Assembly: GCF_040438885.1 (NCBI RefSeq)
Contig: NZ_CP159218.1
Coordinates: 2,356,001 to 2,420,000, forward strand
Length of the DNA: 64,000 bases
Direction: 5' to 3'
From: Nakamurella sp. A5-74
GTDB taxonomy: Bacteria; Actinomycetota; Actinomycetes; Mycobacteriales; Nakamurellaceae
Shown here: one piece after another, positions 18,334 through 38,738 of the stretch
How positions within the stretch are numbered: the stretch's first letter is position 1
How the letters are laid out: each line of letters begins with the position of its first letter
Translations under genes and position numbers: made by a program
The notes under the pieces: model-generated
Database searches by the model: none
Told to the model about the DNA's origin: nothing
What the model saw: only the letters and a program-made list of their open reading frames with translations

Positions 18334-20073
18334 ATGGTTGACGACCAGAAGCTGTACACCGCTTCGCATCCGCTGCCGGCGCCCAGGACCGGGCAGCTGA
18401 CCCCCTTCGAGCCGGGCACCCGCACCCTGGAGGCCGGGTTCCAGCTGGCCCCCCAGTTCAAGCCGCTCCCGGTCGACATCGTCCTGGACAAGGACGTCGC
18501 GGTGCAGCTGCGGGACGGCGTCACCATCCACGTCGATGTGTTCCGCCCGGCCGGCACCGAGCCGGTGCCGGTGCTGGTGGCGTGGAGCCCGTACGGGAAG
18601 GGTCAGGGCAGCTCGGTCAGTGTGATGGGCGTGTTCGGACTGGTCGGTCTCGGCAACGAGATCGTCTCGGGGCTGGAGAAGTTCGAAGCTCCAGATCCGG
18701 CGTACTGGTGCGCCCAGGGCTACGCCGTCTGCAACCCGGACATCCGCGGCGTGGTCGACTCCGAGGGTGACAGCGTGCTGTGGGACCGGCAGGAAGGACT
18801 GGACTGCTACGACCTCATCGAATGGTTGGCCGTCCAGGACTGGTGCACCGGCAAGGTCGGCATGAGCGGCACCTCCTATCTGGCTGTCGCCCAATGGTTC
18901 GCCGCTGCCGAGCAGCCGCCGCACCTGGTCGCGATCAACCCGTGGGAGGGTGTCAGCGACGTCTACCGCGACCTCGTCCTCCGCGGCGGGATGCCGGACA
19001 CCGGTTTCGCCCAGCAGCTGCAGGACGGCAGCTTCTTCGGAAAGAACTCGAAGGAGGACATCCTCGCCGAAGTCGAGCGGTACCCGCTGATGACCGATCT
19101 GTGGGAGAACAAGATCCCCGCGTTCGAGAAGATCACCGTGCCTGCCTACGTGGTCGCCAGTTACTCCAACACCCTGCACACCGCCGGCACGTTCCGGGCC
19201 TGGCGCCGGATGGCCTCCGAACAGAAGTGGCTGCGGATCCACAACACGCAGGAGTGGCCCGACTACTACGACGAGGCGAACGTGGAGGACCTCCGCCGCT
19301 TCTTCGACCACTACCTCAAGGGTGTCGACAACGATTGGGAGACAACGCCTGTCGTTCGCTACTCGCTGCTCGACCTCGGCGGAGGCGACCGGGTGGCACT
19401 GCCGGCCGAGGCGTTCCCACCCGCCGATGTCACGTCGACCAAGTACTACCTCGACGGTCGCACCCGGGCACTGACGACCACTGCTCCGACCGCCGAGGTC
19501 CCGGTGGCATACCAGGCGGACGGGAACCCTGCCGCTGCCTCCTTCATCACCCGCTTCGACCAGGAGACCATGCTTGCGGGATACCCGAAGGCACACCTGT
19601 GGGTCGAGGCCCGAGGTGCAGACGACATGGACCTGTTCGTACTCATCCAGAAGCTCGACGCCCACGGCACCCCGCTGCAGGCCTTCACCGTGTCGAACCG
19701 GAGCCCGATGGCTCACGACCTGACCGACCACGGCGCGACCATCCTGCGCTACAAGGGATCCGACGGCCGTCTCCGCGTATCGGCCCGACACCTCGACGAG
19801 ACCCTGGCGACGGCGGACGTCCCGGCCCACACCTTCGACCGGGTCGAGAAGCTCACGGACGGCCAGGTCGTCGACATCGAGATCGACCTGCTGCCACTGG
19901 GTCTGCTCTTCCGCGCCGGCGATCAGCTGCGGTTCATCGTCAGCTCCCGCAACCTGCTCGGCACCCTGATGCCAGGCATCCGCGAGTACGTCGGCGCGAA
20001 CGCGGGAACGCATGTCATCCACACCGGAGGCGACCGAGCCTCCTACTTGCAACTGCCGGTACAGGAGAACTGA
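18334..20073 (+). CDS. CocE/NonD-family hydrolase (X-Pro dipeptidyl-peptidase S15 type)
   Basis: A 579-residue serine hydrolase. The alpha/beta-hydrolase domain spans about 45-330: VQLRDGVTIHVDVFRPAG opens it, NPDIRGVVDSEGD carries the oxyanion-region turn, and the nucleophile elbow is VGMSGTSYLAV with Ser181. The C-terminal jelly-roll domain (about 360-579) ends with HTGGDRASYLQLP, typical of the family. Cocaine esterase and acylases share this fold; substrates are esters or amides. No signal peptide. It is transcribed alone, divergent from the TetR regulator. A second, longer member is at 34387-36783. Likely role: hydrolysis of an ester or acyl group of the pathway substrate; exact substrate unknown. 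Confidence 0.9.
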   Translation: MVDDQKLYTASHPLPAPRTGQLTPFEPGTRTLEAGFQLAPQFKPLPVDIVLDKDVAVQLRDGVTIHVDVFRPAGTEPVPVLVAWSPYGKGQGSSVSVMGVFGLVGLGNEIVSGLEKFEAPDPAYWCAQGYAVCNPDIRGVVDSEGDSVLWDRQEGLDCYDLIEWLAVQDWCTGKVGMSGTSYLAVAQWFAAAEQPPHLVAINPWEGVSDVYRDLVLRGGMPDTGFAQQLQDGSFFGKNSKEDILAEVERYPLMTDLWENKIPAFEKITVPAYVVASYSNTLHTAGTFRAWRRMASEQKWLRIHNTQEWPDYYDEANVEDLRRFFDHYLKGVDNDWETTPVVRYSLLDLGGGDRVALPAEAFPPADVTSTKYYLDGRTRALTTTAPTAEVPVAYQADGNPAAASFITRFDQETMLAGYPKAHLWVEARGADDMDLFVLIQKLDAHGTPLQAFTVSNRSPMAHDLTDHGATILRYKGSDGRLRVSARHLDETLATADVPAHTFDRVEKLTDGQVVDIEIDLLPLGLLFRAGDQLRFIVSSRNLLGTLMPGIREYVGANAGTHVIHTGGDRASYLQLPVQEN

Positions 20074-20458: not shown

Positions 20459-21364
20459 TCAGGTCAAGCAGCATTCCAACGCGAAGGACAGTTGCCCGAC
20501 CTGGAAAGCCGCGCCGGCCCGGTGGAAGTCGATGCAGTGGCCCGAACCGGGCTGGATGCGGCTGTCCACGGAAGGTGCGGCGGTGAACCCGGTGCGGAAA
20601 CTGTCGATCTGACCTGGGTCAGTGATCCACAGGTGATCGAACTCGCCCTGCCGGTGATGGACAGGAACGGGTACCTCGGCACAGAACGCAGCACGGCCGG
20701 CGATCCAGGTGCCGGTGATGTCGAGCAGTTCCGCCTTGGGCACCAGCGCATTTGACGGGTGACTGGCGGCAGGCATGTCCGGGCCGTAGCTGCCGGCGGG
20801 CCCGAACATCACTTGGTCCTTCATCGGGGTGGGCAGGTCGATCATCGGAATGTCGGGAAGTGACTCCCACGCTGCGCGGGACTGCTGAGGCACCGACACC
20901 AGGCAACCGGAGATCGCAATGCCGAGCAGGGGCCAGCTCTGCGGACGGGCCGCGATGGCGGTGACGACTGCGGCACCGATGGAGTGCCCGACCAGAACGA
21001 TTCCGCTGGTGTCCGCTCCGTACTCGGCCCAGATCTCACCCAGCACCTCACCCAGGACGTCCGCATTGGCCACGATGATCGACCCGTCGGTTTCCAACGG
21101 GCTGCTCCCTGCGTAGTTCGGACGATCCAGGGCAATGACGGGAATGTCGAGGTCGGCGCCGCGACGGAGCAGGGAGTGTCCGGCGATGTCGAAGTATTCC
21201 GAGGTGTACGTGCCTCCGTGGAGCGCGACGACCAGCGGTACATCAGGGCGTGCGGCCCGCCTGAGGTGCCGGTTGGATCGGCCGCTGATGACGAATCCGG
21301 CGGCCGGACCGGCTCCGGTGACCGTGTGGGTGAGTGGCGTCGACGACGATGTCGGTGCAGTCAT
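20459..21364 (-). CDS. Alpha/beta hydrolase
   Basis: A 301-residue alpha/beta-hydrolase. The oxyanion region is VVALHGGTYTS at about 43-53, the nucleophile elbow VGHSIGAA has Ser near 125, a candidate acid is in GEFDHLW and the catalytic His is in GSGHCIDFH near the C-terminus. Size and motifs resemble meta-cleavage or lactone/ester hydrolases of catabolic clusters. It is downstream of a HIT-domain gene by 12 bp on the same strand, so the two form an operon. It may hydrolyse a C-C bond or an ester in the pathway; which one cannot be told. Confidence 0.87.
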   Translation of the reverse strand: MTAPTSSSTPLTHTVTGAGPAAGFVISGRSNRHLRRAARPDVPLVVALHGGTYTSEYFDIAGHSLLRRGADLDIPVIALDRPNYAGSSPLETDGSIIVANADVLGEVLGEIWAEYGADTSGIVLVGHSIGAAVVTAIAARPQSWPLLGIAISGCLVSVPQQSRAAWESLPDIPMIDLPTPMKDQVMFGPAGSYGPDMPAASHPSNALVPKAELLDITGTWIAGRAAFCAEVPVPVHHRQGEFDHLWITDPGQIDSFRTGFTAAPSVDSRIQPGSGHCIDFHRAGAAFQVGQLSFALECCLT

Positions 21365-21376: not shown

Positions 21377-21844
21377 TCAAGATGATGCGGGGCTCGGAGG
21401 GCTGACGGCGCCCGCAGGTGGGAGATCCAGCGCGGCGCGCACATGCTGCAGCGACGCGAGGGCGGCCGGCATGTCGCGCAGCGCGTCGCGAAGCTTGAGA
21501 ATGCCGGCGCCGCGCGACTCGGGCGGAATGTCCCCGCCGCGGGGAATCACCAGAAAATGAAAATGCGAGAAGTTCTCGCCGAAACTCATGAAGTACACGA
21601 ATTCAACGGCCAACGCCTTCTTGATGGCGGCAGAGAGCTGGGCGCAGCGGCCACCGAACTCAGCAAGCTCGTCGGCGGTGAGTTCGTTCCAGCCCTCGGC
21701 GTGGCGGCGCACTCGCAGGATGTACCACCCCGGCACTTCATAGCCTGCAGCGACCTCGCACGACCACCGTTCGTCGCGGAACAGCACAGCACCCGCAGCT
21801 GAGTCCTCGAGCTCGCACGGGAGACAGCCGATCATCGCGGTCAT
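21377..21844 (-). CDS. HIT-domain protein with altered triad
   Basis: A 155-residue member of the histidine-triad superfamily: CLPCELED near the N-terminus, GWYILRVRRH and the signature SHFHFLVIPRG. In the canonical H-x-H-x-H motif the third His is replaced by Leu, while the middle (nucleophilic) His remains. HIT proteins are nucleotide hydrolases or transferases. Presence in a catabolic operon with an alpha/beta hydrolase is unusual. A GATATATC element at 21908-21915 upstream matches the operator of the neighbouring GntR regulator. Substrate unknown. Confidence 0.8.
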   Translation of the reverse strand: MTAMIGCLPCELEDSAAGAVLFRDERWSCEVAAGYEVPGWYILRVRRHAEGWNELTADELAEFGGRCAQLSAAIKKALAVEFVYFMSFGENFSHFHFLVIPRGGDIPPESRGAGILKLRDALRDMPAALASLQHVRAALDLPPAGAVSPPSPASS

Positions 21845-21958: not shown

Positions 21959-22642
21959 TCAGGCGCGCTCCCACTGGCGGATGTGCCGGAGAATGCGTCG
22001 CTCGTTCGCTTCTAGATGAGCGGTCAAAGCTTGGGTCATGACGTCCGGGTCGGCTCCCAGTGCCGCATCCAACAGCAACTGGTGCGTCTGATGGCGCCGG
22101 TCCCGTTCCTCGTCGGTGATCTGGGTCGGGTCGAACACCAAGTGGGTGTATCGCTCCGCTGCCGTCCACAGGGTCTCCAACATCCGGTCGTCCCACGCAG
22201 TGGCGGCCGGATGCACCAAGGCTGCGTGGAAGTCGTAGTGCGCCTGCCAGGCGAGTTCGGGATCCTCGTCGCGGCTGCTCTCGAGGAGCCTCCGGAGGGT
22301 TGCGCGGCGTGCGGGGTCGTGATGGCCGGCCGAAGCGGCCGCCAGCGGCAGCTCGATCACGTATCGCAGTCGGTAGATGGCCTGCAAGTCCGCCACGGTC
22401 AGGGACGCCACTTCGGCGCTCCGGGCAGGGCGCAGAATGACCAGGCCTTGAGATTCCAATCGGCGTAACGCTTCACGGATCGGAATGTGACTGACACCGA
22501 GTTGGACCGCCAGGTTCCGGATCGAGAACTGCTGACCGGGCGCCAGCGATCCGGTGAGTACCGCACGCCGGATCTCAGCGGTCACCAGATCGACCGCCGA
22601 ACTGTTCTGCGGTCGAACGGATCGAACCTGCTGGTCTGCCAC
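21959..22642 (-). CDS. GntR-family regulator, FCD subfamily
   Basis: A 227-residue regulator. The winged helix is at about 15-80: AEIRRAVLTGSLAPGQQFSIRNLA, QLGVSHIPIREALRRLESQGLV. The FCD ligand domain follows with IYRLRYVIELPLA, DFHAALVH and a C-terminal HLEANERRIL; the His/Asp pattern suggests a metal-assisted carboxylate pocket. FCD regulators usually sense an organic acid of the pathway. Divergent from the AceE-like gene at 22747; the palindrome at 22714-22728 lies between. It probably controls the 22.7-31.1 kb operon and perhaps the HIT-hydrolase pair. Confidence 0.9.
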   Translation of the reverse strand: MADQQVRSVRPQNSSAVDLVTAEIRRAVLTGSLAPGQQFSIRNLAVQLGVSHIPIREALRRLESQGLVILRPARSAEVASLTVADLQAIYRLRYVIELPLAAASAGHHDPARRATLRRLLESSRDEDPELAWQAHYDFHAALVHPAATAWDDRMLETLWTAAERYTHLVFDPTQITDEERDRRHQTHQLLLDAALGADPDVMTQALTAHLEANERRILRHIRQWERA

Positions 22643-22713: not shown

Positions 22714-22728
22714 GATATAGCGTATATC
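22714..22728. promoter_or_regulatory. GntR/FCD operator candidate
   Basis: GATATA-GCG-TATATC is a perfect 6-bp inverted repeat with a 3-bp centre, 19 bp before the ATG of the AceE-like gene and 72 bp before the divergent GntR gene. FCD regulators often bind short A/T-rich palindromes of this kind. Confidence 0.75.
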
Positions 22729-22746: not shown

Positions 22747-25173
22747 ATGCACAGTCCCACGGAGCAATCGGCGGCCGTGTATCCGTCCGTGCGAGCTCGG
22801 TCCACAGGCGAGCAGGACGTGCTGTCGGAGATCGAGCGCAAGATCCTGTGGATCTCCACGGCTGTCATCGACGCCGCGAACGGCATGGCCCGGAAAGACC
22901 CGGACGGCTTGAAGGTCGGCGGCCACCAAGCGTCCTGCGCATCAGCGGTCAGCCTCATGACCGCCTTGTGGTTCACCGAGCTCACCGCAGCAGACCGCGT
23001 GTCGGTCAAGCCTCACGCCTCCCCCGTTCTGCATGCGATCAACTATCTGCTGGGCGAGTTGCGTGCCGAGCAACTCGAGACGCTGCGCGCGCTGGGCGGC
23101 CTGCAGAGCTACCCCAGCCGATCGAAGGACCCCGATACCGTTGACTATTCGACCGGCTCCGTCGGGATCGGCGCAACGGCACCTCTCTGGGGAGCGATAG
23201 CCCGTCGCTACGCGGCCTCCGTGGCCACTGTTCCTCACTCGGTCAGCAGCGCGGCACCACCGGTGACGAGCGCGATCGTCGGACGTCAGTTCAGCATCGT
23301 GGGCGACGCCGAACTGGATGAGGGTGCCGTGTGGGAGGCGATCCTCGATCCGATGGTCTCCGATCTCGGCGAAATTGTGTGGATCGTCGACTTCAACCGG
23401 CAATCACTGGACCGCGTGGTGCCCGACATCTCGGCCGTCCGGCTGCAGGCGATGTTCCGTGCGGCCGGGTGGCAGGTCATCACCCTCAAGTACGGCCGGC
23501 TGCTGACAGAGCTGTTCCGTCGGCCGGGCGGCGAGCTGCTCGAGCGGCGCATCGACGAGATGTCCAACCCGGAGTTCCAGCGGCTGCTGCGCTGCTCTCC
23601 CGCCGAGTTGCGCGAGCGACTCCCCGGCGCCGACGAAGGGCGGGAGGCGATCAAGGAATTGCTGGCAACGGTGGCCGACGCGACCCTCCACGACGTCATC
23701 ACCGGCCTCGGTGGCCACGACATTGCGGGCTTGATGGATGCCTTCGAGCAGATCGAGGACCACCGCCCCACCATCATCTTCGCCTACACCATCAAGGGCT
23801 ATGGACTGCCGAGCGCTGGACACCCGCAGAATCACTCCAACCTGCTCACCTCGGATCAACTGTCCTTGCTCTCCCGTGCGCTCGGTGAGAACACCGACGA
23901 CCCCTGGCGGGCTTTCACACCCGGATCGGCCGCGGATCTGGTGTGCAAGGACGTCAGTGCCCGGCTGCAGCGACCGACCGTCCCCCCGCCGTCACCGCCG
24001 GTGGTCCCCACCGATTTCGGCCGCACCCCCGGCAGCCGGAGTTCGACCCAGCAGTCACTGGGTCGGTTCCTGCTCGACCTGTCCCGCCTGGCCCCCGACG
24101 TAGCCCGCCGGGTGGTGACGGTGGCGCCGGACGTGGCCTCCAGCACCAACCTCGGGGGATGGCTGAACAAGGTAGGAGTCTGGTCTCCGGCCGCACGCAC
24201 CGACTGGTTCGCCGACGACGCCGAAACCCTGCTCCACTGGGATGAGCGCCCGAGTGGTCAGCACATCGAACTGGGTATCGCCGAGGTCAATCTGGTCGGT
24301 CTGCTCGGTGAGCTCGGATCCACCTGGAGTCGGTGGGGCCAGACCCTGCTGCCGATCGGCACGCTGTACGACCCGTTCGTCACCCGGGCGCTGGAGCCGT
24401 GGTCGTTCGGCGTGTACGCGGGCGGGCAGTCCATCATGGTCGGAACTCCTTCCGGAGTCACGCTGGCCGCCGAGGGCGGCGCGCACCAGTCGATCATCAC
24501 CCCGTCCATCGGTCTGGAGCAGCCCGGGGTGGTGGCGTTCGAACCGGCCTTCGCACACGAAGTCGAGTGGTGCATGCTCGATGCGTTGAGCCGCCTGGGA
24601 CACCGGGACGGATCTTCCAGCTACTTGCGCCTCTCCTCCCGCGTTCTCGATCAGACGTTGGCGGCAGTGCCGGTCGATCCCGCCGCCCGTGAACGACGTC
24701 GCCGGCAGGTCGTCGGCGGCGGCTATGCGCTCCGGAGGGCACCGCGCCCTGACATCACCCTGGTCGGCATGGGGGCGATCATGCCCGAGGTGCTGAGCGC
24801 CGCAGCGCGCCTGCAAGAGCTGGGATTGGCCGCCGACGTCATCTGTGTCACCAGTGCCGATCGCCTCTACCGTGCATCGCGTGCAGTGCGCGGCTACGGC
24901 GACGGAAATCCCTCGGTGCTGTGGCAGGCTTTTCCGGCCGATCGAGCCGTGCCGATGGTCACCGTCCTGGATGGACATCCACACACCCTGTCGTTCCTCG
25001 CCACGGTGCACGCAGTGCCGAGCATCAACCTCGGCGTCACCGATTTCGGCCAGACCGGGACCCTGCAAGAGCTCTACCGGCTGCACGGCATCGGTCCCGA
25101 TGCGATCGTCGGTGCCGCTCTGGATCTTCTGGACCCCCCGACGCAGTCCACATCCGCCGACACCGCCCGCTGA
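22747..25173 (+). CDS. AceE-like thiamine-diphosphate dehydrogenase/transketolase
   Basis: An 808-residue protein homologous to homodimeric pyruvate dehydrogenase E1 (AceE) and transketolases. The N-terminal half has DAANGMARKDPDGLKVGGHQAS, a histidine region (KPHASPVLHAINYLLG) and the cofactor motif GDAELDEGAVWEAILDP followed after about 30 residues by DFN (GD...N). The middle domain has the conserved Glu in HIELGIAEVNLVG, and the C-terminal domain ends VTDFGQTGTLQELYRLHGI. Size is about 80 residues short of AceE. No E2 or E3 gene is nearby, so it may act alone (transketolase- or decarboxylase-like) on a 2-oxo acid or oxo-sugar-like intermediate, or borrow housekeeping E2/E3. It leads the operon to 31090. 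Confidence 0.85.
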   Translation: MHSPTEQSAAVYPSVRARSTGEQDVLSEIERKILWISTAVIDAANGMARKDPDGLKVGGHQASCASAVSLMTALWFTELTAADRVSVKPHASPVLHAINYLLGELRAEQLETLRALGGLQSYPSRSKDPDTVDYSTGSVGIGATAPLWGAIARRYAASVATVPHSVSSAAPPVTSAIVGRQFSIVGDAELDEGAVWEAILDPMVSDLGEIVWIVDFNRQSLDRVVPDISAVRLQAMFRAAGWQVITLKYGRLLTELFRRPGGELLERRIDEMSNPEFQRLLRCSPAELRERLPGADEGREAIKELLATVADATLHDVITGLGGHDIAGLMDAFEQIEDHRPTIIFAYTIKGYGLPSAGHPQNHSNLLTSDQLSLLSRALGENTDDPWRAFTPGSAADLVCKDVSARLQRPTVPPPSPPVVPTDFGRTPGSRSSTQQSLGRFLLDLSRLAPDVARRVVTVAPDVASSTNLGGWLNKVGVWSPAARTDWFADDAETLLHWDERPSGQHIELGIAEVNLVGLLGELGSTWSRWGQTLLPIGTLYDPFVTRALEPWSFGVYAGGQSIMVGTPSGVTLAAEGGAHQSIITPSIGLEQPGVVAFEPAFAHEVEWCMLDALSRLGHRDGSSSYLRLSSRVLDQTLAAVPVDPAARERRRRQVVGGGYALRRAPRPDITLVGMGAIMPEVLSAAARLQELGLAADVICVTSADRLYRASRAVRGYGDGNPSVLWQAFPADRAVPMVTVLDGHPHTLSFLATVHAVPSINLGVTDFGQTGTLQELYRLHGIGPDAIVGAALDLLDPPTQSTSADTAR

Positions 25174-25193
25174 ATCCTCGAAGGAGAGAATCG

Positions 25194-25805
25194 ATGCCCG
25201 AGAACAAGGCCACGAACTACCCGGTCAACCCACCGAAGCTGCACCACACCACCTTCACCACACTCCGCATGGACCAGATGGTCCAGTGGTACGGCCTGGT
25301 GTGTGGGCTCCGCCCCGTCTTCCAGAGCGATGAGGCGTCCTGGATGACCAACGATGCGGCAAACCATCGGATCGCGCTGCTGTCCCCCCCGGGATTGAAG
25401 CATCCCACCGACAAGGGTCACGAAACGGGGATCCATCACACTGCATTCGAGTTCGCGACGTTCGACATGTGGCTCAACAACTACATCCGACTGCGGGACC
25501 ACGGCGTCCTGCCGTTCCTCACTCTGGACCACGGCATCACGATGTCGGTCTACTACCAGGATCCCGACGGCAACGGTGTCGAGATCCAGGTGGACGGATT
25601 CGGCGACTGGGCCGCGTCCAGCGAGTGGATAGCGACCGCGCGGGAGTTCGCCGCCAACCCGATCGGGATCTTCTTCGACCCGGAGAAGATCGTGCTCGCT
25701 CGCGAGGAGGGCATGTCCTTCCAGGAGATCCACGAGCGGACGCGGGCAGGCGAGTATTTGCCGGCGACCATTCCCGAAGACATCTTCCTGCCCGAGGTCT
25801 GGTGA
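25194..25805 (+). CDS. Single-domain VOC/extradiol dioxygenase-like protein
   Basis: A 203-residue vicinal-oxygen-chelate protein. Candidate metal ligands are His in KLHHTTF near residue 17, His in GIHHTAFEF near 83 and Glu in DPDGNGVEIQVD near 128, the same spacing as in type I extradiol dioxygenases; YYQDPDGNGVEI is the usual closing motif. A C-terminal extension rich in aromatic and acidic residues (EIHERTRAGEYLP) follows. ATG 25194 has AAGGAGAG 8 bases upstream. As it lies between hydroxylase and hydrolase genes it is the best candidate for ring cleavage; a glyoxalase-type isomerase is the alternative. Confidence 0.8.
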   Translation: MPENKATNYPVNPPKLHHTTFTTLRMDQMVQWYGLVCGLRPVFQSDEASWMTNDAANHRIALLSPPGLKHPTDKGHETGIHHTAFEFATFDMWLNNYIRLRDHGVLPFLTLDHGITMSVYYQDPDGNGVEIQVDGFGDWAASSEWIATAREFAANPIGIFFDPEKIVLAREEGMSFQEIHERTRAGEYLPATIPEDIFLPEVW

Positions 25806-25810
25806 GCTGA

Positions 25811-26905
25811 GTGCGTGCACTGACGATCACCAACGCGAGAGTCTTCGACGGAACCCGGCTGAGCGAGCCACGGTCAGTGCGGATCATCGATGGGCTCATC
25901 GACGAGTCCCGCGCCGGAGCAGCTCACGACGAGGTTGTTGATGCCGAGGGCGGCGTACTTCTGCCAGGTCTGATCGACGGGCACGTCCACATCGACGACC
26001 CCGGCCAGACCCTCACATTGGCCCGATGGGGTGTGAGCACCGCCCTGGACATGGGGGCCAAGGACCCCGGTCTGATCAGAGAATGCCGCGACCAGACGGG
26101 TCGGACCTCGCTGCGCAGCGCAGGATTTCCGGCCGGGCCGGTGACCGGAACCCACATAGCTCGGCTCGGCTATCCCGCCTGGATCGCGATCGCCGAGGCT
26201 GATGACGCCGTCGGCTGGGTCGCTCAACGGGCAGCGGAAGGATCGGACTACATCAAGGTGCTGCTCGAGCCTCAGATCCCCGGGCAGCCCGAGCCGCTCT
26301 CCCCCACCACTGCCGCGGCAGTGGTGGACGCCGCCCACGCCGGCGGTCGACGGGTCGTCATGCACACCACGACCGTGGACACCGTCCGGATCGCCGTCAC
26401 CGCCGGCGCAGACGTCTTCACCCACTCGCCGCTGGCCGGCGCACCCGACGCCGAATTGGTGCAGCAGATCGTGGATGCTGACACGGTCGCCGTTCCAACC
26501 CTGTCGATGATGAAGGCGCTCGCTGACCATTGGCCATTTCCGGTGCGTCCGCCCGAGGTTGCCTTCGAGAACGCTTTGGCGTGGGTCGGGGCCCTGCACC
26601 GTGCCGGGGTGAGCATCGTGGCCGGGACCGACGCGAATGCAGACCCGGCCACCCCTGCTCGGGTGCCCCACGGCGAATCCCTGCACGACGAACTCGCCTT
26701 GATGGTGGAGGCGGGACTCACCCCGGTCGATGCCCTCCGAGCCGCAACCGAGGTCTCCGCGAACCGGTTCGGGCTCAGCGATCGCGGTGCGATCCGCTCC
26801 GGCTTACGGGCTGACCTCCTGCTGGTGGCCGCAGATCCGACGGTCGACATCGCCGCGACTCGCGACATCCGCGGCGTCTGGATCGCCGGCGAGAGAGTCC
26901 GGTGA
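25811..26905 (+). CDS. Amidohydrolase-superfamily enzyme
   Basis: A 364-residue metal-dependent hydrolase starting at GTG 25811, 5 bp after the dioxygenase stop. Metal site: GLIDGHVHIDD (HxH) near residue 57, carboxylated-Lys candidate in DYIKVLLEPQ, His in VVMHTTTVDT and THSPL, and Asp in IVAGTDANAD. The C-terminal strand GLRADLLLVAADP is typical of imidazolonepropionase/prolidase-like members. It hydrolyses a C-N, or less often C-O or C-C, bond; here probably a cyclic or lactone intermediate. No arginine or guanidine-pathway partner is present, so a catabolic role with the cluster is inferred. Confidence 0.87.
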   Translation: MRALTITNARVFDGTRLSEPRSVRIIDGLIDESRAGAAHDEVVDAEGGVLLPGLIDGHVHIDDPGQTLTLARWGVSTALDMGAKDPGLIRECRDQTGRTSLRSAGFPAGPVTGTHIARLGYPAWIAIAEADDAVGWVAQRAAEGSDYIKVLLEPQIPGQPEPLSPTTAAAVVDAAHAGGRRVVMHTTTVDTVRIAVTAGADVFTHSPLAGAPDAELVQQIVDADTVAVPTLSMMKALADHWPFPVRPPEVAFENALAWVGALHRAGVSIVAGTDANADPATPARVPHGESLHDELALMVEAGLTPVDALRAATEVSANRFGLSDRGAIRSGLRADLLLVAADPTVDIAATRDIRGVWIAGERVR

Positions 26906-26912
26906 GCGGAGC

Positions 26913-28538
26913 ATGATCAGTACCCCGGTGCTGGTGGTCGGCGGGGGTCCCGTCGGACTGACCGCGGCCCTGGAACTGGCGCACCACGGCGTCGCGAGTG
27001 TGGTCCTGGAACCCCGCGTCGTCGTTGACCACCAACGGCCCCGGGCCAAGACGACGTCCGCGCGCAGCATGGAGCTGTTCCGGCGAACGGGGGTGGCAGC
27101 AGAGATCCGGCGGCGAGCCGCGCTCCCCGCAGCGTGGTCGCACGAGATCCGCTTCTGCACGACGGTGTTGGGCGCAGAGGTCACCCGGATGAGCCACACC
27201 CTCGGTCTGGAACTGATCGATTCCCCGCTCACGTCCGAGTCCGCGCAACAGGTGACCCAGCCCGTAGTGGAGGAGGCACTCCGAGCAGTGATCGCCGAGC
27301 AACCCCTGGTGCGGACCCTGTTCGGGTGGCAGGCCAACACGATCACCTTGGCCGGAGACCGCCGCCAGGTACGGGTGCTGGACGGGTCGGGTGAGTCCGA
27401 CGACATCGAGTTCCGGTACCTTATCGGCGCCGACGGATCACGGAGCGTCGTCCGGGAGGCGTTGGGGGCCCACTATGTCGGTGCACCAGGCGGTCGACCC
27501 AACGTCAACATCACGTTCCGGTCCGAGCAGCTCCGAGACCGGCTCTCCGGCACGCCTGCCGTGCATCACTGGGTGCTCAATCCCGCCGCTCCCGGCGTCG
27601 TGGGCGCTCTTGACCTGGCCGGCACCTGGTGGGCCATCGCCACCGGCACCGCATCGATCGCCGACGACGACGAGGCAGCCGCACTGGTCCGAGCACTGGT
27701 CGGCGACGACATCGATGTCCGGATCATTGCCACCGACCCCTGGCAGGCGCGCTTGCTGCTGAGCGACTCCTACGGCCGCGACGGCGCCTACCTGGTGGGT
27801 GACGCGGCCCACCAGAATCCGCCGTGGGGTGGCCACGGATTCAACACCGGGGTCGGGGATGCGGTGAACCTTGCCTGGAAGATCGCAGCGGTGCTCAACG
27901 GCTGGGCACCACCGGAGCTCCTGGACAGCTACGAAGCCGAACGCCGCCCGGTGGCCGAACGGACCATCGAGCTGGCCGCCGTCAACATGCGGGCACTGCC
28001 GATCGAACTCGGGAACCCGGCCATGACCACCGCCGGCCTCCCCGGCCAAGCCGCTCGCGAGGCTGCGGCCACCGCCATCGAGAGCGTGAAGCGCTCCGAG
28101 TTCTACAGCCTGGGTCTGGTCCTGGGCCATACCTACGGGCCGGATCCGGCGGCCCACTCCTCCAGCACCGAGATCTACCAACCCCAGGTACAACCGGGAA
28201 ACAGGCTGCCGCACCAACGATCGATGGATGGGCAGTCCTTGTACGACCTGCTCGGCCCGGAATTCACCGTCCTCGGTCCAGCGGAGGCGGCCGGGCCGCT
28301 GGTCACAGCGGCTGCACAGCTCGGGGTCCCCCTGATGCAGGTGGATCCGCAGCAGAACCACTTCGCCGCAGTGGACGGAACCAGGGCGGTGCTCGTGCGG
28401 CCGGACCAACACATCGCCTGGGTCGGCCAGCCGTCCGCACCCGACACGGACGACCGATCGGAGTGCCACCCGCGGGACATCATCAGAACGGCACTCCGCG
28501 GCTTCAACCCCCCGAAGACCCCCGCCGCGACACCCTGA
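26913..28538 (+). CDS. FAD-dependent aromatic hydroxylase (PheA/TfdB-MhpA type)
   Basis: A 541-residue group A flavoprotein monooxygenase. FAD motifs are visible in order: VVGGGPVGLTAALELA at residue 7, the DG motif in LIGADGSRSVVREAL, and the GD motif AYLVGDAAHQNPPWGGHGFNTGVGDA. The C-terminal thioredoxin-like domain (from about 420) ends before WVGQPS. The enzymes hydroxylate phenols using NAD(P)H and O2. ATG 26913 follows the amidohydrolase stop by 7 bp. A second hydroxylase, only distantly similar, is at 43785-45401. Likely prepares a catechol- or hydroquinone-type ring for cleavage. Confidence 0.92.
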   Translation: MISTPVLVVGGGPVGLTAALELAHHGVASVVLEPRVVVDHQRPRAKTTSARSMELFRRTGVAAEIRRRAALPAAWSHEIRFCTTVLGAEVTRMSHTLGLELIDSPLTSESAQQVTQPVVEEALRAVIAEQPLVRTLFGWQANTITLAGDRRQVRVLDGSGESDDIEFRYLIGADGSRSVVREALGAHYVGAPGGRPNVNITFRSEQLRDRLSGTPAVHHWVLNPAAPGVVGALDLAGTWWAIATGTASIADDDEAAALVRALVGDDIDVRIIATDPWQARLLLSDSYGRDGAYLVGDAAHQNPPWGGHGFNTGVGDAVNLAWKIAAVLNGWAPPELLDSYEAERRPVAERTIELAAVNMRALPIELGNPAMTTAGLPGQAAREAAATAIESVKRSEFYSLGLVLGHTYGPDPAAHSSSTEIYQPQVQPGNRLPHQRSMDGQSLYDLLGPEFTVLGPAEAAGPLVTAAAQLGVPLMQVDPQQNHFAAVDGTRAVLVRPDQHIAWVGQPSAPDTDDRSECHPRDIIRTALRGFNPPKTPAATP

Positions 28539-28575
28539 GCGCGCGGCGGCCGCCAGACGAGCTGAAGGAAACAAC

Positions 28576-29448
28576 ATGCGCATCGCCAACATCGCCGGCC
28601 GACTGAACCTGGTCGACGGTCCACTCGCCGTCGACGTCCAGACCACCAGCAGTTCGACGTTCGAGGCCGATCCCGCGGCCGTGTACGCACGGTGGCACGA
28701 GTTCGCCACCTGGGCCGCCCGTCAGGACGTCCGTCACTCCACAGCAGCAGTGGCCTTCGATCCGAGCCGGCTGGGTGCGCCATCGCCGAGTGCGCGACAG
28801 GTGTTCGGCATCGGACTGAACTACGCCGACCACGCAGCGGAAGCAGGTCTTCCGATCCCGCAGCAACCGCTGGTCTTCACCAAGTTCGCTTCCTCTGTCA
28901 CCGGCCCGCAGACCGACGTCGAGCTCCCCGGTGACACGGTCGACTGGGAGGCGGAACTGGTCGTGGTCATCGGTCAGGGCGGCCGACACATCGACGTACC
29001 CGAGGCCGCAGCCCGGATCGCCGGCTACACCGTCGGGCAGGACATCTCAGAGCGGACCGTCCAATGGCAGGGTGAACCCGCACAGTTCAGCGTCGGGAAG
29101 TCCTTCGCCGGATTTGCCCCAACGGGGCCCTTCCTGGTCACCCCTGACGAGTTCGAGGATCCGGCTCGCCTCCATCTGTCCTGCACCATCACCGATTCCG
29201 CCGGCTCCACCACCACCGTTCAGGACGGATCCACCGAACAGCTGATCTTCTCGATTCCAGAACTCGTCAGCAGGCTCTCCCAGATCGTGGAACTGCTGCC
29301 CGGAGACCTGATCTTCACCGGCACCCCGCCGGGTATCGGAGCGGCCAGGAAGCCTCCGAGGTTTCTGACGCCCGGAGATGTCCTGACCACCGAGATCGAC
29401 GGCATAGGGCGTTTGGTGCAACGATTCATCACCGCCGGGCACCGATGA
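28576..29448 (+). CDS. Fumarylacetoacetate hydrolase-family protein
   Basis: A 290-residue FAH-family enzyme. Metal and active-site blocks are VFGIGLNYADHAAEAG near residue 76, the acidic pair in VDWEAELVVVIG, GYTVGQDISERTVQW and GDLIFTGTPPGIG. Members hydrolyse or hydrate acylpyruvates and 2-oxo-acids produced by ring cleavage; decarboxylase/isomerase forms exist too. An AAGGAA site precedes ATG 28576. Its stop overlaps the next start (ATGA). A paralog, sharing the same motifs but lacking close similarity elsewhere, is at 45749-46600. Confidence 0.92.
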   Translation: MRIANIAGRLNLVDGPLAVDVQTTSSSTFEADPAAVYARWHEFATWAARQDVRHSTAAVAFDPSRLGAPSPSARQVFGIGLNYADHAAEAGLPIPQQPLVFTKFASSVTGPQTDVELPGDTVDWEAELVVVIGQGGRHIDVPEAAARIAGYTVGQDISERTVQWQGEPAQFSVGKSFAGFAPTGPFLVTPDEFEDPARLHLSCTITDSAGSTTTVQDGSTEQLIFSIPELVSRLSQIVELLPGDLIFTGTPPGIGAARKPPRFLTPGDVLTTEIDGIGRLVQRFITAGHR

Positions 29449-30347
29449 TCCTGGTGACCGCTGCGGCCGGCAACCAGGGTCGGCAGCTGATCCCGAAGCT
29501 GGTCCGGTCCGGCGAGCAGGTCCGTGCTTGTGTGCAATCGGAAGCCTCCGCCCGGCGCCTGCGATCGGCCGGAGTGAGCGAGGTCCTGATCGGCGACCTC
29601 GGCGATCCACGGGTCCAGGTCGAGGCGGTACGCGGAGTCCGGAGCGTCTATCACGTCGGACCGACCGCCCACCCGCTGGAGCGCCGGATGGGGATGGGCC
29701 TGGTGGATGCGGCACGCGAGGCGGGCGTTGGCCATTTCGTGTTCAGTTCGGTCCTGCACGCCATCACCACCGATCTGGTCCAACACGAGATCAAACGCGA
29801 CGTCGAGGAACACCTGCTGTCGTCGGGGTTGGAATTCACCATCCTGCAACCGTCGAACTACATGCTGCCCCTCAAACTCAAGCCGGCCTTCGAGCGAGGG
29901 GTTTTCGAGCTCTCCTGGTCACTGAGCAGGCGCCAGTCCCTGGTCGACCTCGCCGACGTGGCCGACGTCGCACGACTGGTACTCACCGATGCGGCTGCTC
30001 ATGTCGGAGCGACGTATGAGCTGGCGGGGCCGGGTCGTTACACAGCGCACGAACTCGGTGCCATCATCTCTTCCGTACTGGGACAACCGATCGAGGTCCG
30101 TGAGATCGACGCCGACACCTATTTGGCCGCGTGGTTCGGCGACGCGGATCCAGCTGCCTTCCCCCACCAGGCGCGCATGCTCCGCGCCATCTCCACCAGA
30201 TACAGCAGCCACGACTTCGTCGGAAACCCCAACGTGCTGAACTGGCTACTGCGCCGGGCACCGACCACTTTCGAGCAGTACGTCCGCCGAGAGCTCGAAC
30301 AGTTCCGCACCGACAACCCCACGGCCGCACCTGGAGAATCACCATGA
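29445..30347 (+). CDS. NmrA-like NAD(P)-binding protein (atypical SDR)
   Basis: A 300-residue Rossmann protein. The N-terminal [20 protein letters not shown] is the atypical-SDR nucleotide motif, [13 protein letters not shown] and [10 protein letters not shown] follow, and no Tyr-x-x-x-Lys catalytic pair is evident. The second half ([32 protein letters not shown]) is NmrA/HSCARG-like. It could be a quinone or enone reductase or a redox sensor. Both junctions are ATGA overlaps (with the FAH gene before and the SDR after), so expression is tightly coupled to the operon. Confidence 0.87.
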
Positions 30348-31090
30348 AACTCGATGGGCGCACCATCCTGATCACCGGCGGCGGATCCGGCATCGGTCGT
30401 GCGCTGGCCCACGAGCTGCACCAACGTGGCAACCAGGTGATCATCGCGGGTCGACGCGGTGTGGCCCTCGACGCGGTCACCTCGACACACCCGGGGATGA
30501 CCTCGTTCCTGCTGGATGTGTCTGATCCCGCGAGCATCGCCACGGTCGTGCCCGCAATCCTGGCCCGGCACAGCACCCTCGATGTGCTGATCAACAACGC
30601 CGGCATCATGGTCGGTGACGACATCACCGGACCCCTGCGGGACGCCGAACTCGCCGACATCGTGTCGACGAATCTCCTCGGTCCCATACGTATGGTTTCT
30701 GCGCTGATAGATCACCTGAAGACGATGCCGACCGCCACCATCATCAACGTGACGTCCATGCTCGGATATGCACCGCTCGCAACGTCCGCTCAGTACAGCG
30801 CCACCAAAGCGGGTCTGCACTCCTACACCCTCTCCCTCAGACATCTGCTCGAGGAGACGTTTGTCGACGTCGTGGAGATCGCGCCGCCCTACACCCGCAC
30901 CCCGCTGATGGATGTCAACCTCACGGACCCCAGGGCCATGCCGCTGGATGAGTTCATCGCCGAGACCATCGTCGTCCTCGAAACCGACAGCCCAGAGGCA
31001 TATGTCGCACGTGCCCGTGAGCGCCGCGACGCACTGCGTCCCCGCGAGATCGAAGCGACTCGCCAGTTCAACGACGCCATGTCGCTCTGA
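30344..31090 (+). CDS. Short-chain dehydrogenase/reductase
   Basis: A 248-residue classical [14 protein letters not shown] (13-23) is the cofactor loop, NNAGIMVG the NNAG motif, Ser in INVTSMLGY and the catalytic pair Tyr-x-x-x-Lys in YSATKAG. The profile resembles DltE-type reductases. ATG 30344 overlaps the preceding stop, and it is the last gene of the operon starting at 22747. Substrate: an alcohol/ketone or dihydrodiol intermediate; not determinable. No terminator is obvious in the 107 bp before the convergent GntR gene. Confidence 0.92.
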
Positions 31091-33322: not shown

Positions 33323-34390
33323 GTGAGCCTCCGGGACGCCGTGCGGTCGCGCGACGAAGCAGCCGCCGAAACAGCTGCCGCCGTGGTCGACCGCCCCGGA
33401 GCTGCACCTCGACTCGACTCGATCGCGATGGCTCCCCGGACCGCGGGCACGACGCTGCTGTCCGTGCTTGCAGCCCCACTGAACCCGCTGGATCTGTTGA
33501 TCGCATCAGGCGCCTTCCATTCCGCGCGGCATGAGGTCCCCTACGTTCCCGGCAGCGAATGCGTCGGAGTCGTGCAGGAGTCGGACATCCACCCGGCGGG
33601 ATCGTTGGTGTACGCCGAACGCCGTGCCTCACCAACAACGCCGGGCACATTCGCGGACCGCGTTCTGGTGCGCGACGCGGACGTCCTGCCATTGCCGGCC
33701 GGTGTCGATGCTGTGCGCGCTGCCGCTGTCGGCAACTCGGGTGTGGCCGCCTGGCTGCCGTTGATCGAGACCGCCGGACTCCGTACCGGCGAGACCGTGG
33801 TCGTGCTCGGCGCCACCGGTGCTGTCGGACAGCTCGCGGTGCAGATCGCCCGCCGACACGGTGCTGGTCGAGTTATCGGCGTCGGTCGCGATCAGGCTGC
33901 ACTGCAACGACTTCTCATCCTGGGCGCGGACGCTGTCGTCGATCTGCGTCCCGATGAGAGCGAAGCTGCCTTGTCGGCGCGGATGGCCGAAGCCACTGCC
34001 GGGCCCGTCGACGTCGTCCTGGACGGCTTGTACGGCCTTCCGCTCCAGGCTGTGCTGCCACTGTGCGCACAGCACGCCCGGGTGGTCAACATCGGAAACT
34101 CGGCCGGGTCGACAGCGACCATTCCCGCGGGCCTGCTGCGCGGCAAACAGATCCAGCTGTCGGGCTTCGCCGGCCTGCACACAGAGCTGAAGGACAAGCA
34201 GCGTGCCCTGGCCTGGCTGTGGGCCGCGCTCGGACGCGGGGACCTGTACGTCGACGTCCGCACCGTTGCCCTCGCCGATCTGCCCGAAGCCTGGGAGGCC
34301 CAGGCGTCCTCCCCGCACGTCAAGCTCGTTGTACTGCCGGGCGATCGCCAGTCGAACCTCCACCGAAACCCATCGGGAGCTCTGTCATGA
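33323..34390 (+). CDS. Zinc-less medium-chain dehydrogenase (quinone oxidoreductase-like)
   Basis: A 355-residue MDR protein. The GroES-like half contains VLAAPLNPLDLLIASG and VPYVPGSECVGVV; the Rossmann half has VVVLGATGAVGQLAVQIARRHGAGRVIGVG. The catalytic zinc ligands of alcohol dehydrogenases are missing, as in quinone oxidoreductases (QOR). Start ATG vs GTG: GTG 33323 follows AAGGGAG. It leads the operon 33323-38738 with ATGA overlaps to the next gene. It probably reduces an enone or quinone formed in the pathway. Confidence 0.88.
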   Translation: MSLRDAVRSRDEAAAETAAAVVDRPGAAPRLDSIAMAPRTAGTTLLSVLAAPLNPLDLLIASGAFHSARHEVPYVPGSECVGVVQESDIHPAGSLVYAERRASPTTPGTFADRVLVRDADVLPLPAGVDAVRAAAVGNSGVAAWLPLIETAGLRTGETVVVLGATGAVGQLAVQIARRHGAGRVIGVGRDQAALQRLLILGADAVVDLRPDESEAALSARMAEATAGPVDVVLDGLYGLPLQAVLPLCAQHARVVNIGNSAGSTATIPAGLLRGKQIQLSGFAGLHTELKDKQRALAWLWAALGRGDLYVDVRTVALADLPEAWEAQASSPHVKLVVLPGDRQSNLHRNPSGALS

Positions 34391-36783: not shown

Positions 36784-38144
36784 GCACCACGGCCGCCGCC
36801 ACCACGCCACGCCAGGGCGCATCGCGTAGCCCGATCGAACCCGCCCACCAGGAGATGAACACGATGGTTGCCACTTACGTCGAGCACGACACCGACCGAA
36901 CCGTCCAGGTGATCCTGGAGAAGGTGCGGGCTCTCGGTCCCACGCTCCGTCAGCGAGCACCGGAGGCGGAGCAAGCCGGCAGGCACTCCGATGAAACCAT
37001 CGCGGATCTGGACGCGACCGGCGTCTTCGACATCGGCAGCCCAGCGGAGTACGCCGGGACTGAGCTGACCGTCCGTCAGCAACTGGACGTCGTCACCGAG
37101 GTGGCGAAATGGGACGGGTCGGCCGGATGGACCGTGTGGGTCGGGGCTTCGACGAACTGGATCCCGGCCGGATCGGGTGCACGTGTTGTCGAAGAGGTCT
37201 ACGGCCACCCGTGGGTCGGCCCGCGGGTCGCCGGCTCGAGCCATTTCCCCGCCACTCGCGGGCGGGTGGAGCGAGTCCAGGGAGGATGGCTGATCTCCGG
37301 CGGACCATGGACCTTCGGCAGCGACTCACTGTGGGCGCCGTACACCAACCTGGGCTGCATCGCCGATGAAGGCGACGGCCAGTACCTGGTCGGCGTGCAG
37401 GTTCCGCGGGACGAGCTGGAGTTCCTGGACGATTGGAAGGTCGCCGGCATGCGCGCGACCGGCAGCGTCTCCTGCAAGCTGGCCAAGGGTGAGCTGTTCG
37501 TCCCCGAGTACCGAGGCGTGGATTTCCGCGACGTGACGGGCCAGAAGCTGGACAACGGTCTGCGGGGCTCGATCTGGAAGGCACCGACGCTCGGATGGGC
37601 GTTCAGCCTGATGGCCGGCATGTCGATCGGCATCGCACAGGGTGCACTGGATCGGTTCCTGGAACGCTCCGACGGGCGACCGATCCGCGGCACCACCTAC
37701 AAGAACCAGCTCGAAGCGCCCTTGACGCACCTGATGCTCTCCGAGGTGCACTCCAAGATCCAGTCGGCCACGCTCATGGCGGAGGCGAACGCGGCCGAGA
37801 CAGACCGACTCGGCGAGCTGGCCGCTGCCGGTACTCCGGCCGATCCGGAGTACCTGCAGAAGTTCAGCGCCCGGGTCCTGGTCGAGACCGCGTACTGCGC
37901 GAAGTGGTGTGCGGAAGCGATCGAGTTGCTGCAACGCAACTCCGGGTCGACCGCCATCATGGACTTCGAACCGATCCAGCGGTCCTGGCGCGATGCTCGC
38001 ATCATCACCCTGCACGGTGCGCTGAATCTGGAGGCACTGTCGGAGAACTACGGCCGACTGATGGCCAGGCTCGCACCGCACAACTTCGCCGGCATCACCA
38101 CACTCGACCGATTCGCCCCGACACCGGTGACCAAGGTCAGCTGA
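36780..38144 (+). CDS. Group D flavin monooxygenase, oxygenase component (acyl-CoA dehydrogenase fold)
   Basis: A 454-residue protein of the HsaA/HpaB/DszC class. It shows VTEVAKWDGSAGWTVWVGAS, the fold-typical GGWLISGGPWTFGSD, VAGMRATGSVS and a C-terminal helical domain with LMLSEVHSKIQSATLMAEA. The general base of true acyl-CoA dehydrogenases is not apparent. Such enzymes hydroxylate phenols or indoles with FMNH2/FADH2 supplied by a separate reductase; the reductase at 42495-43688 is the natural partner. The ATG at 36780 overlaps the preceding stop (ATGA), but ATG 36864 has a better AGGAG site 9 bases upstream and may be the true start, trimming 28 residues. Confidence 0.85.
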   Translation: MSTTAAATTPRQGASRSPIEPAHQEMNTMVATYVEHDTDRTVQVILEKVRALGPTLRQRAPEAEQAGRHSDETIADLDATGVFDIGSPAEYAGTELTVRQQLDVVTEVAKWDGSAGWTVWVGASTNWIPAGSGARVVEEVYGHPWVGPRVAGSSHFPATRGRVERVQGGWLISGGPWTFGSDSLWAPYTNLGCIADEGDGQYLVGVQVPRDELEFLDDWKVAGMRATGSVSCKLAKGELFVPEYRGVDFRDVTGQKLDNGLRGSIWKAPTLGWAFSLMAGMSIGIAQGALDRFLERSDGRPIRGTTYKNQLEAPLTHLMLSEVHSKIQSATLMAEANAAETDRLGELAAAGTPADPEYLQKFSARVLVETAYCAKWCAEAIELLQRNSGSTAIMDFEPIQRSWRDARIITLHGALNLEALSENYGRLMARLAPHNFAGITTLDRFAPTPVTKVS

Positions 38145-38195: not shown

Positions 38196-38738
38196 ATGAT
38201 CGAGCACGACAAGGCCGCCATCATCGAAGCGCTCAACCTGTATGCGTTCGCTCTGGATGCCCGCCAGTGGGACCTGTTCGACCTGGTGTTCACCCAGGAC
38301 GTGCGGGCAGAGTTCGGCCCGGCCGGCACCGGGTGGCGCGACCTGACGGCATTCAAGCAAGGATTCGCAGAGTTCCACGACACCCTCGACAGCCACCAGC
38401 ACACGATGTTGGGGCAGCTCGTCACCGTCGACGGCGACACCGCCCACGCCTTCAGCTACGGCAACTGGCTGCTCGTCCGACATGCTGCCGACGGTGGCCC
38501 CACCTGGACCGGAACCGGCTGGTACGACGACGTTCTCATCCGAACCGAACAAGGCTGGCGCATCTCACACCGGGTCTGCAAGCTGCAGTCCTGGTCGGGT
38601 AATCCGCGCGTGCCCGAACCCATCGGCACCCAGAACCCCGACATGCAGATGAACGTGCTCCACGACTTCGCCGCCGATGGTCGGATTGCTTTCCTCGATG
38701 CCGTCAAGGCTCGGGGGGGTTTCGGCGCCACCACCTGA
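38196..38738 (+). CDS. SnoaL-like (NTF2-fold) protein
   Basis: A 180-residue cone-fold protein: AIIEALNLYAFALDARQWDLFDLVFTQDVRAEFG opens the SnoaL_4-type domain, with GWYDDVLIRTEQGWRISHRVCKLQSW at the end. Such proteins act as small cyclases, dehydratases, isomerases or hydroxylase accessory proteins in aromatic pathways. It is the last gene of the operon from 33323. Asp and His residues (DTLDSHQHTMLG) could form the pocket acid/base. The following 289 bp, before the transporter, contain no recognisable gene. Confidence 0.85.
   Translation: MIEHDKAAIIEALNLYAFALDARQWDLFDLVFTQDVRAEFGPAGTGWRDLTAFKQGFAEFHDTLDSHQHTMLGQLVTVDGDTAHAFSYGNWLLVRHAADGGPTWTGTGWYDDVLIRTEQGWRISHRVCKLQSWSGNPRVPEPIGTQNPDMQMNVLHDFAADGRIAFLDAVKARGGFGATT

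Follow-up and report, generated by a model that had tools for sequence, protein, structure and literature searches.

An AceE-like thiamine diphosphate enzyme heads a putative aromatic ring-cleavage operon in Nakamurella sp. A5-74

The chromosome of Nakamurella sp. A5-74 carries a seven-gene operon that begins with a thiamine diphosphate (ThDP) enzyme resembling AceE, the homodimeric E1 component of pyruvate dehydrogenase (PDH). The operon lies at 22747-31090, on the + strand, of the 64-kb stretch of DNA analyzed here, which we call the window and to which all positions refer. Its genes are tightly packed: the largest gap is 37 bp, and at the other extreme neighbors overlap by 4 bp. Specifically, the ThDP enzyme (22747..25173; 808 residues; E1-type by Pfam, NCBIfam, alignment, tree, and profile) is followed by a single-domain VOC extradiol-type dioxygenase of 203 residues with an H18/H82/E130 triad (25194..25805; Pfam, alignment, structure and profile searches), an amidohydrolase-superfamily protein of 364 residues (25811..26905; Pfam and NCBIfam), a flavin adenine dinucleotide (FAD) monooxygenase of 541 residues that possesses FAD_binding_3 and Rng_hyd_C domains and exceeds the NF004780 cut-off (26913..28538), a FAH-family hydrolase of 290 residues (28576..29448; Pfam, NCBIfam, and PDB relatives), an NmrA-like NAD(P)-binding protein (29445..30347; Pfam), and a short-chain dehydrogenase (SDR; 30344..31090; Pfam). 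The starts of the VOC, FAD monooxygenase, and SDR genes were picked by us within longer open frames. Relatives of the FAH protein in the PDB include an acylpyruvase and a putative fumarylpyruvate hydrolase. Every gene named in a preliminary description of this locus was found in its place on the + strand, backed by Pfam (NCBIfam was also run), and the gene content supports the proposal made there of an aromatic-type catabolic operon with a paired hydroxylase and extradiol-type VOC enzyme. The span 22747-31090 given in that description holds the right genes, but the conserved unit is larger: it extends upstream and, in the other direction, to ~46.6 kb.

By sequence, the ThDP enzyme is AceE-like rather than transketolase-like. 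Its closest solved relative is Escherichia coli AceE. The profile of 17 family members scores AceE at 205 bits and transketolases at no more than 97, and Foldseek ranks AceE chains first when queried with the structure model of the enzyme (predicted local distance difference test, pLDDT, of 65). Both relevant family cut-offs are missed: the enzyme scores 190.3 bits with TIGR00759 (AceE; cut-off 859.9) and 67.5 bits with TIGR00232 (bacterial transketolase; cut-off 682.25). In the alignment with E. coli AceE, H106, H142, Y177, D230, N260, Q262, K392, D521, E571, Y599, E636, and H640 are identical, and the ThDP/Mg motif and catalytic residues of AceE are all aligned and identical. The residues compared are taken to represent the AceE active site. 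Phylogenetically, the family separates from AceE/MdeB as a neighboring clade (110-sequence tree; support 0.994 when the Novosphingobium member is counted in), and within it the window enzyme clusters with those of five Microbacteriaceae loci (0.971), including locus L072.

The second gene of the operon would supply the ring-cleaving enzyme. Its predicted structure is that of a single-domain VOC protein (203 residues, pLDDT 81.5). H18, H82, and E130 are invariant in nine of nine sequences and are spaced 64/48, compared to 63/48 for the His-His-Glu positions 29/92/140 of IppB (H29/H92/E140), which cleaves 2-isopropylhydroquinone (PMC12442392). BphC2 and BphC3, presented there as the closest IppB relatives, cleave the ortho-diol 2,3-dihydroxybiphenyl (PMC12442392). 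The window protein is only 33-36% identical to VOC proteins of Rhodococcus plasmids, the proteins covered by this comparison. By profile, its top PDB relative is 9u42 (E 1.6e-13; next relative 1.5e-9), a homogentisate 1,2-dioxygenase by title; phmmer with the single VOC sequence retrieved nothing from the PDB at E 0.001. In structural comparison, 9u42 reaches Z 10.4, and FosA and glyoxalase-like chains tie with it; because of this tie, the VOC fold alone is uninformative with respect to substrate. IppB and 9u42 act on para-diols, which hints, as a lead only, at a hydroquinone-type substrate, whereas the ortho-diol cleavage by BphC2 and BphC3 points otherwise. The flavonoid-type chemistry raised in the preliminary description gains no support from our data, no sequence comparison aimed at it having been made.

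The ThDP gene and the VOC gene are linked beyond this genome. With our genome included in each count, the ThDP gene is present in 33 of 101 related genomes (E 1e-60), in 48 of 296 genomes sampled from across the class (E 1e-100), and, within the genus, in 4 of 17 genomes (the three members besides ours are 58-60% identical); the family also occurs in 161 of 72,556 plasmid records (E 1e-20). The expectation in the preliminary description that a stand-alone AceE-like enzyme would be new does not hold: relatives are common (33/101 and 48/296 genomes), most of them with no E2 gene nearby, and for Rhodococcus such a gene had already been listed next to a cluster of this kind (PMC6498646). Among the 296 class genomes, a sample not chosen by gene context, 8 harbor the VOC gene (E 1e-15), and 7 of those 8 also have the ThDP gene. 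Leaving out our genome, the ThDP gene is present in 6 of 7 VOC genomes versus 47 of 295 overall (hypergeometric p 8e-5, a guide only, the genomes being related). The two genes lie less than 10 kb apart in five of the eight VOC genomes (our own, G125, G189, G194, and G329; 4/7 without our own). They are far apart on one contig in G076 and on different contigs in G368, and in G286, which has the VOC gene, no ThDP gene was found at the E 1e-100 limit. The smaller sample of 101 related genomes contains three with the VOC gene (our own, G033, and G076), each with the ThDP gene; the resulting p of 0.1 proves nothing alone. In G033, 11.4 kb separate the two genes, and the 20 kb that were read showed no FAH or FAD hydroxylase homolog. 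The set is more complete in G189 and G194, where genes for the FAD hydroxylase, FAH protein, amidohydrolase, and alpha/beta hydrolase are present as well. Within the genus, the VOC gene occurs in our genome only, 16 other genomes having been searched. Thus, this type of operon is patchily distributed.

Chromosomal relatives were read from the best 80 of 221 loci on genome contigs, to at most 10 kb on each side, several of them on short contigs. FAH homologs occur in 14 of the 80, VOC homologs in 8, and FAD hydroxylase and GntR homologs in 6 each. Closest to the window are four Microbacteriaceae loci (L022, L023, L024, and L049), in which the VOC protein is 86-89% identical and which also possess FAH, FAD hydroxylase, GntR, and alpha/beta hydrolase homologs and an amidohydrolase (45-64%). 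L024 additionally has both CocE hydrolases and the HsaA-type oxygenase encoded around the Nakamurella operon, at 74-78%. Because the block recurs in these four loci and, distantly, in G189 and G194, it reflects more than chance. The G329 locus (L142) and L075 are one contig stretch and are not independent.

Plasmids provide the parallel loci that bear most directly on the role of the ThDP enzyme. The VOC query retrieved 17 plasmid records, from which 13 loci were read; the other four (H42, H44, H47, and H48) were counted as near-duplicates on the basis of their table rows. For Agrobacterium tumefaciens, Priestia, Paraburkholderia, and Streptomyces NBC_00984, reading extended 9 kb to either side of the VOC gene; for pNit, it extended 12 kb to either side of the E1 gene, and for the remaining loci 20 kb. 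FAH and FAD hydroxylase homologs are present in 10 of the 13. A ThDP enzyme that oxidizes 2-oxo acids is present in 7 of the 13, all 7 among the 10 with VOC, FAH, and FAD hydroxylase genes. These enzymes are of three types, and the five E1-type ones have an adjacent E2 gene. Specifically, Rhodococcus rhodochrous pNit, R. koreensis, and Rhodococcus USK10 carry an E1 of the same family as the window enzyme together with an E2, 8-19 kb from the VOC gene. Paraburkholderia D15, whose cluster also has an HsaA-type protein, and Cupriavidus P-10 carry an MdeB-type E1, a distant relative, together with an E2; the Paraburkholderia E1 passes the NCBIfam cut-offs of both the alpha-ketoglutarate dehydrogenase model and AceE. 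Two Streptomyces VOC loci encode indolepyruvate ferredoxin oxidoreductase, an unrelated enzyme. No 2-oxo-acid ThDP enzyme was seen in the plasmid loci of Novosphingobium resinovorum, Variovorax, Sphingobium, two Agrobacterium, and Priestia. Chiefly because different enzymes fill the same slot, we infer that the step in question is the oxidative decarboxylation of a 2-oxo acid.

The E1 component of a 2-oxo acid dehydrogenase hands its product to an E2, and no E2 gene was found nearby. The cognate E2 and E3 genes that characterize a 2-oxo acid dehydrogenase complex are absent from the operon. The preliminary description had noted the missing lipoyl acyltransferase, and tblastn bears this out: E. 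coli AceF and Lpd, the organism's own E2 and lpd-like E3, and two accessory E2s gave no match in the 64-kb window at E 1e-3, nor did an indolepyruvate ferredoxin oxidoreductase or an acetoacetyl-coenzyme A (CoA) synthetase. An E2-like open reading frame (ORF) was likewise unseen in 76 of the 80 family loci, flank length being unchecked for 19 of the 80. The four exceptions place it at most 1.4 kb behind the ThDP gene (L065, L066, and L079) or 9.6 kb off (L090); in L079, it follows HIT and VOC genes, and the contig ends inside it. Elsewhere in the genome, candidate partners exist. The assembly is one contig of 4.75 Mb (98% complete) and contains a separate AceE at C1:2102180, 29% identical to the ThDP enzyme. 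E2-type catalytic domains occur at three places: beside an ORF that is lpd-like by eye (L122), after an ORF with a GDGA motif (L121), and inside a 1398-residue frame judged kgd-like from its length alone. An orphan third E2 was considered as the partner and set aside: no free E2 stood out, although no family search was made. Searching with the accessory E2 of pNit gives a match (E 1e-70 or better) in 95 of the 101 related genomes, usually one per genome, and its match in our genome is the E2 beside the lpd-like gene. Accordingly, the accessory E2 resembles a PDH-type housekeeping E2. As side observations, lipoyl and catalytic domains are present in the accessory E2s of both pNit (L102) and R. 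koreensis (L107), but neither matches PF02817, the E3-binding domain, in contrast to the E2s of Novosphingobium and Paraburkholderia, where PF02817 is matched. Another ThDP enzyme, annotated as the large subunit of acetolactate synthase, is encoded nearby in L102, L104, and L107.

We lean, by a modest degree, toward the following explanation: the region encodes a ring-cleavage pathway for a substituted phenol that includes E1-type oxidative decarboxylation of a 2-oxo acid, with E2 and E3 supplied in trans. Release of the phenol may fall to esterases or amidases. A hydroxyl group would be added by a flavin hydroxylase, which could be the operon's own FAD enzyme, the two-component oxygenase of HsaA type encoded downstream, or both; the VOC dioxygenase would then open the ring, and the FAH-family enzyme would hydrolyze a C-C bond of the ring-opened product. 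The AceE-like E1, with ThDP, would decarboxylate a 2-oxo acid, either the product of ring opening or the fragment that the FAH-family enzyme sets free. The acyl group would pass to a lipoyl-E2 encoded elsewhere, most simply that of the housekeeping E2-E3 pair, and become an acyl-CoA. Direct evidence covers gene content, conservation, the E1-type active-site residues, the linkage of VOC and E1 genes, and the E2 genes next to related E1 genes in parallel loci; we infer the order of these steps, the substrate, the E2 that is used, and control by GntR. More tentatively, and at somewhat below an even chance, we propose the narrower idea that an AceE-like E1 was recruited to ring cleavage and, in this lineage, acts without a dedicated E2 gene, and that it either borrows the PDH E2/E3 or is a self-sufficient decarboxylase of the ring-fission 2-oxo acid.

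Several observations weigh against the in trans explanation, and the strongest doubt comes from the lack of an E2 near the genes of the window lineage, which makes a self-sufficient decarboxylase possible. Specifically, among the 13 loci with both VOC and ThDP genes (the window, L022, L023, L024, L049, L066, L075 = G329, L079, L093, G125, G189, G194, and G033, read 3-20 kb on each side, the window over its 64 kb), no E2 was seen in 11; L066 and L079 have one. Changes relative to AceE add to the doubt: V192 is replaced by G, M194 by V, E522 by V, N258 by D, and E401 by H, and the position of H407 is occupied by N, with a His two residues earlier. In addition, only 19 unaligned residues stand opposite the ~72 first residues of E. 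coli AceE, which therefore have no counterpart. We take these first ~72 residues to be the E2-binding part, and the surroundings of E522, E401, and H407 to lie in or near a loop serving E2. The same segment is missing from relatives that are accompanied by their own E2, so the short N-terminus is compatible with the use of an E2. The structure model of the ThDP enzyme is, moreover, mediocre. As judged from gene neighborhoods, the ThDP enzyme is not confined to a ring-cleavage pathway, because 72 of the 80 family loci, some with short flanks, have no such VOC gene nearby, no VOC or FAH gene lies close by in the sister locus L072, and R. pyridinivorans pRJH2 encodes E1 and E2 with the VOC gene absent within 12 kb. 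The pRJH2 arrangement implies that the E1 family also serves elsewhere. Nor does a ThDP enzyme accompany every VOC gene: three plasmid loci have VOC, FAH, and FAD hydroxylase genes without a ThDP enzyme within +-20 kb, and three others have the VOC gene alone, without FAH, FAD hydroxylase, or ThDP enzyme.

These doubts lend most to the possibility that the ThDP enzyme needs no partner and is a non-oxidative decarboxylase or carboligase of 2-oxo acids, yielding an aldehyde or acyloin, with the aldehyde passing to the SDR or to an aldehyde dehydrogenase. The failure to find E2 or E3 in the window or in the four closest loci, the missing AceE N-terminus, the changes at E522, E401, and around H407, the SDR of the operon, and aldehyde dehydrogenase-like ORFs seen by eye in L022 and L049 all fit that arrangement. 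We nevertheless judge it unlikely, because relatives with the same short N-terminus and the E522 and E401 changes adjoin a lipoyl E2 gene in pNit, R. pyridinivorans, R. koreensis, and Novosphingobium (domains were seen for three of these E2s), and because the enzymes of the parallel loci are, by family, acyl-CoA-forming types. If the enzyme is an oxidative E1, it could instead be a second pyruvate E1 that, with the housekeeping E2/E3, burns pyruvate freed by the FAH-family hydrolase. The AceE-like active site would suit pyruvate, as would the acylpyruvase and putative fumarylpyruvate hydrolase relatives of the FAH protein. The genome already contains an AceE, however, the window protein scores far under the AceE cut-off, and the slot is filled in other loci by an E1 that passes the cut-off of the alpha-ketoglutarate dehydrogenase model as well as that of AceE or by indolepyruvate ferredoxin oxidoreductase; we give this version a small probability.

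It is still less probable that the ThDP enzyme takes an amino acid-derived 2-oxo acid as its substrate, at an upstream step, and belongs to the operon by a different logic. Consistent with such a role, an Lrp/AsnC-like gene was seen by eye near 29 of 100 family stretches, 19 of them with 1.5-kb flanks only, and annotated Lrp/AsnC genes lie beside several members; an aminotransferase gene is located directly 3' of the ThDP gene in Arthrobacter NicSoilE8 and at a distance of up to ~10 kb in Novosphingobium pLA3. The regulator in the window, by contrast, is of the GntR type, and the ThDP gene heads a ring-cleavage operon and is linked to the VOC gene. Finally, a transketolase acting on sugar phosphates, which the preliminary description entertained, has the Transketolase_N and Transketolase_C Pfam domains in its favor, along with the many relatives annotated as transketolase. 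The residues and scores speak against this function: AceE Y177, Q262, D521, and Y599 are kept where E. coli TktA has others, the transketolase model is missed by some 600 bits, and the profile and fold searches favor AceE. We reject it on these grounds and assign it hardly any probability.

The oxidative ring-cleavage pathway that we favor would draw on genes outside the operon. A GntR/FCD regulator gene, present in all four Microbacteriaceae loci, is divergent from the operon (21959..22642, - strand), 104 bp from its first gene. Within that gap lies an inverted repeat, GATATA-N3-TATATC (22714..22728), recognized by eye and a candidate operator of the divergent GntR; the window, L022, L023, L024, and L049 all have TATA-N3-TATATC, also noted by eye, 5' of the ThDP gene. 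Scanning 11.6 kb for promoters and terminators yielded one promoter-like and three terminator-like sites, and shuffled sequences gave as many. Farther upstream are genes for a HIT-like small protein (21377..21844, - strand; labeled by eye, with no Pfam match), an alpha/beta hydrolase 52% identical to one from the Paraburkholderia D15 cluster (20459..21364, - strand), and a CocE/NonD-family hydrolase (18334..20073, + strand; Pfam and NCBIfam; 78% in L024).

Downstream, on the + strand, a second CocE/NonD-family hydrolase (34387..36783; Pfam and NCBIfam; 74% in L024) precedes the putative oxygenase subunit of an HsaA-type flavin monooxygenase with the acyl-CoA dehydrogenase fold (36825..38144, start approximate), which scores 156 bits, under the HsaA cut-off of 450, and is 76% identical in L024. 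Then follow a SnoaL-like protein (38196..38738, +), an MFS transporter of the metabolite/H+ symporter type, under the NCBIfam cut-off (39028..40494, +), a flavin reductase domain protein that may partner the HsaA-type oxygenase (42495..43688, - strand), a second FAD_binding_3 monooxygenase (43830..45401, +, start approximate), and a second FAH-family protein (45749..46600, +). From the HsaA-type gene to the second FAH gene, the former is the one demonstrated to be common to a relative (L024). The flavin reductase has a C-terminal extension of ~240 residues with no Pfam family at E 0.001. Just 3' of the operon, a second GntR gene (31198-31893) adjoins a gene for a DUF3500 protein (31984-33138, - strand). 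Beyond the catabolic genes, 25 bp of the 3' end of a tRNA-Leu(gag) gene (62077-62160, - strand) are repeated exactly and directly at 49753-49777 and 62077-62101, 12.3 kb apart, a pair that resembles the remnant left by an element integrated into the tRNA gene. Between the repeats are a two-component system, a ferric reductase-like protein, an ApbE protein, and IS3- and IS630-type transposases (types assigned by eye). Over 17400-62076, the G+C content is 0.64-0.67, lower than the 0.70 that precedes and the 0.69 that follows this segment, consistent with a catabolic region gained by horizontal transfer.

Taken together, the window, its relatives, and the plasmid loci suggest that many such gene sets regularly include a step of 2-oxo acid oxidative decarboxylation, for which they use either one of two E1 types, themselves distantly related, or a ferredoxin oxidoreductase unrelated to both. 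The step offers a chemical hint to the missing substrate of the pathway, namely, that a 2-oxo acid arises along the way. If our favored explanation is correct, one E2 core would serve both central metabolism and an aromatic pathway, and the orphan E1 provides a direct case for asking whether the housekeeping E2 core also accepts an accessory E1.

Based on its genes, the operon is best read as a variant of Rhodococcus central pathway VIII (PMC6498646) and of the ipp system (PMC12442392), FAD hydroxylase, VOC dioxygenase, FAH hydrolase, and HsaA-type oxygenase with flavin reductase all being present by family in the window, with the HsaA-type and reductase genes outside the operon. Pathway VIII, whose substrate is described as unknown (PMC6498646; likewise PMC10266561), comprises a hydroxylase, VOC and FAH proteins, acetoacetyl-CoA synthetase, AsnC, and a "pyruvate dehydrogenase E1 component", the last of which parallels the window ThDP gene (PMC6498646). 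Shared between the two are the VOC, FAH, and FAD monooxygenase proteins, an HsaA-like acyl-CoA-dehydrogenase type 2 protein, and a flavin reductase (PMC6498646). Acetoacetyl-CoA synthetase, AsnC, and, in three plasmid loci, a dedicated E2 occur only on the Rhodococcus side; GntR, amidohydrolase, NmrA, and CocE hydrolases occur only on the window side, which has neither E2 nor acetoacetyl-CoA synthetase. The ipp genes for 2-isopropylphenol degradation in Rhodococcus sp. D-6 likewise encode an HsaA-type hydroxylase and reductase, a ~210-residue His-His-Glu VOC protein, and a FAH protein (PMC12442392). Among the eight genes of Table 1 in that paper, one of them hypothetical, none is named as a ThDP enzyme or as an FAD hydroxylase of the operon type, and "pyruvate dehydrogenase" is absent from its main text (PMC12442392).

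With the homodimeric E1s of the AceE/MdeB type, the window enzyme shares the fold, the ThDP motif, and most active-site residues; it differs in forming a separate clade, in lacking the first ~72 residues, and in scoring far under the AceE cut-off. Our literature search found no paper that assigns the 2-oxo acid step of ring cleavage to an AceE-family enzyme; PMC6498646 lists the gene only. The nearest functional parallel is EdcC of the estrogen degradation (edc) pathway, a ThDP enzyme reported, with in vivo evidence, to act on the extradiol cleavage product and to decarboxylate it (PMC7793797). EdcC is an indolepyruvate ferredoxin oxidoreductase and thus belongs to a different family (PMC7793797). 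Nonetheless, the EdcC precedent, combined with the statistical linkage of the ThDP and VOC genes, renders plausible the idea, present already in the preliminary description, that the Nakamurella ThDP enzyme acts on a ring-cleavage product.

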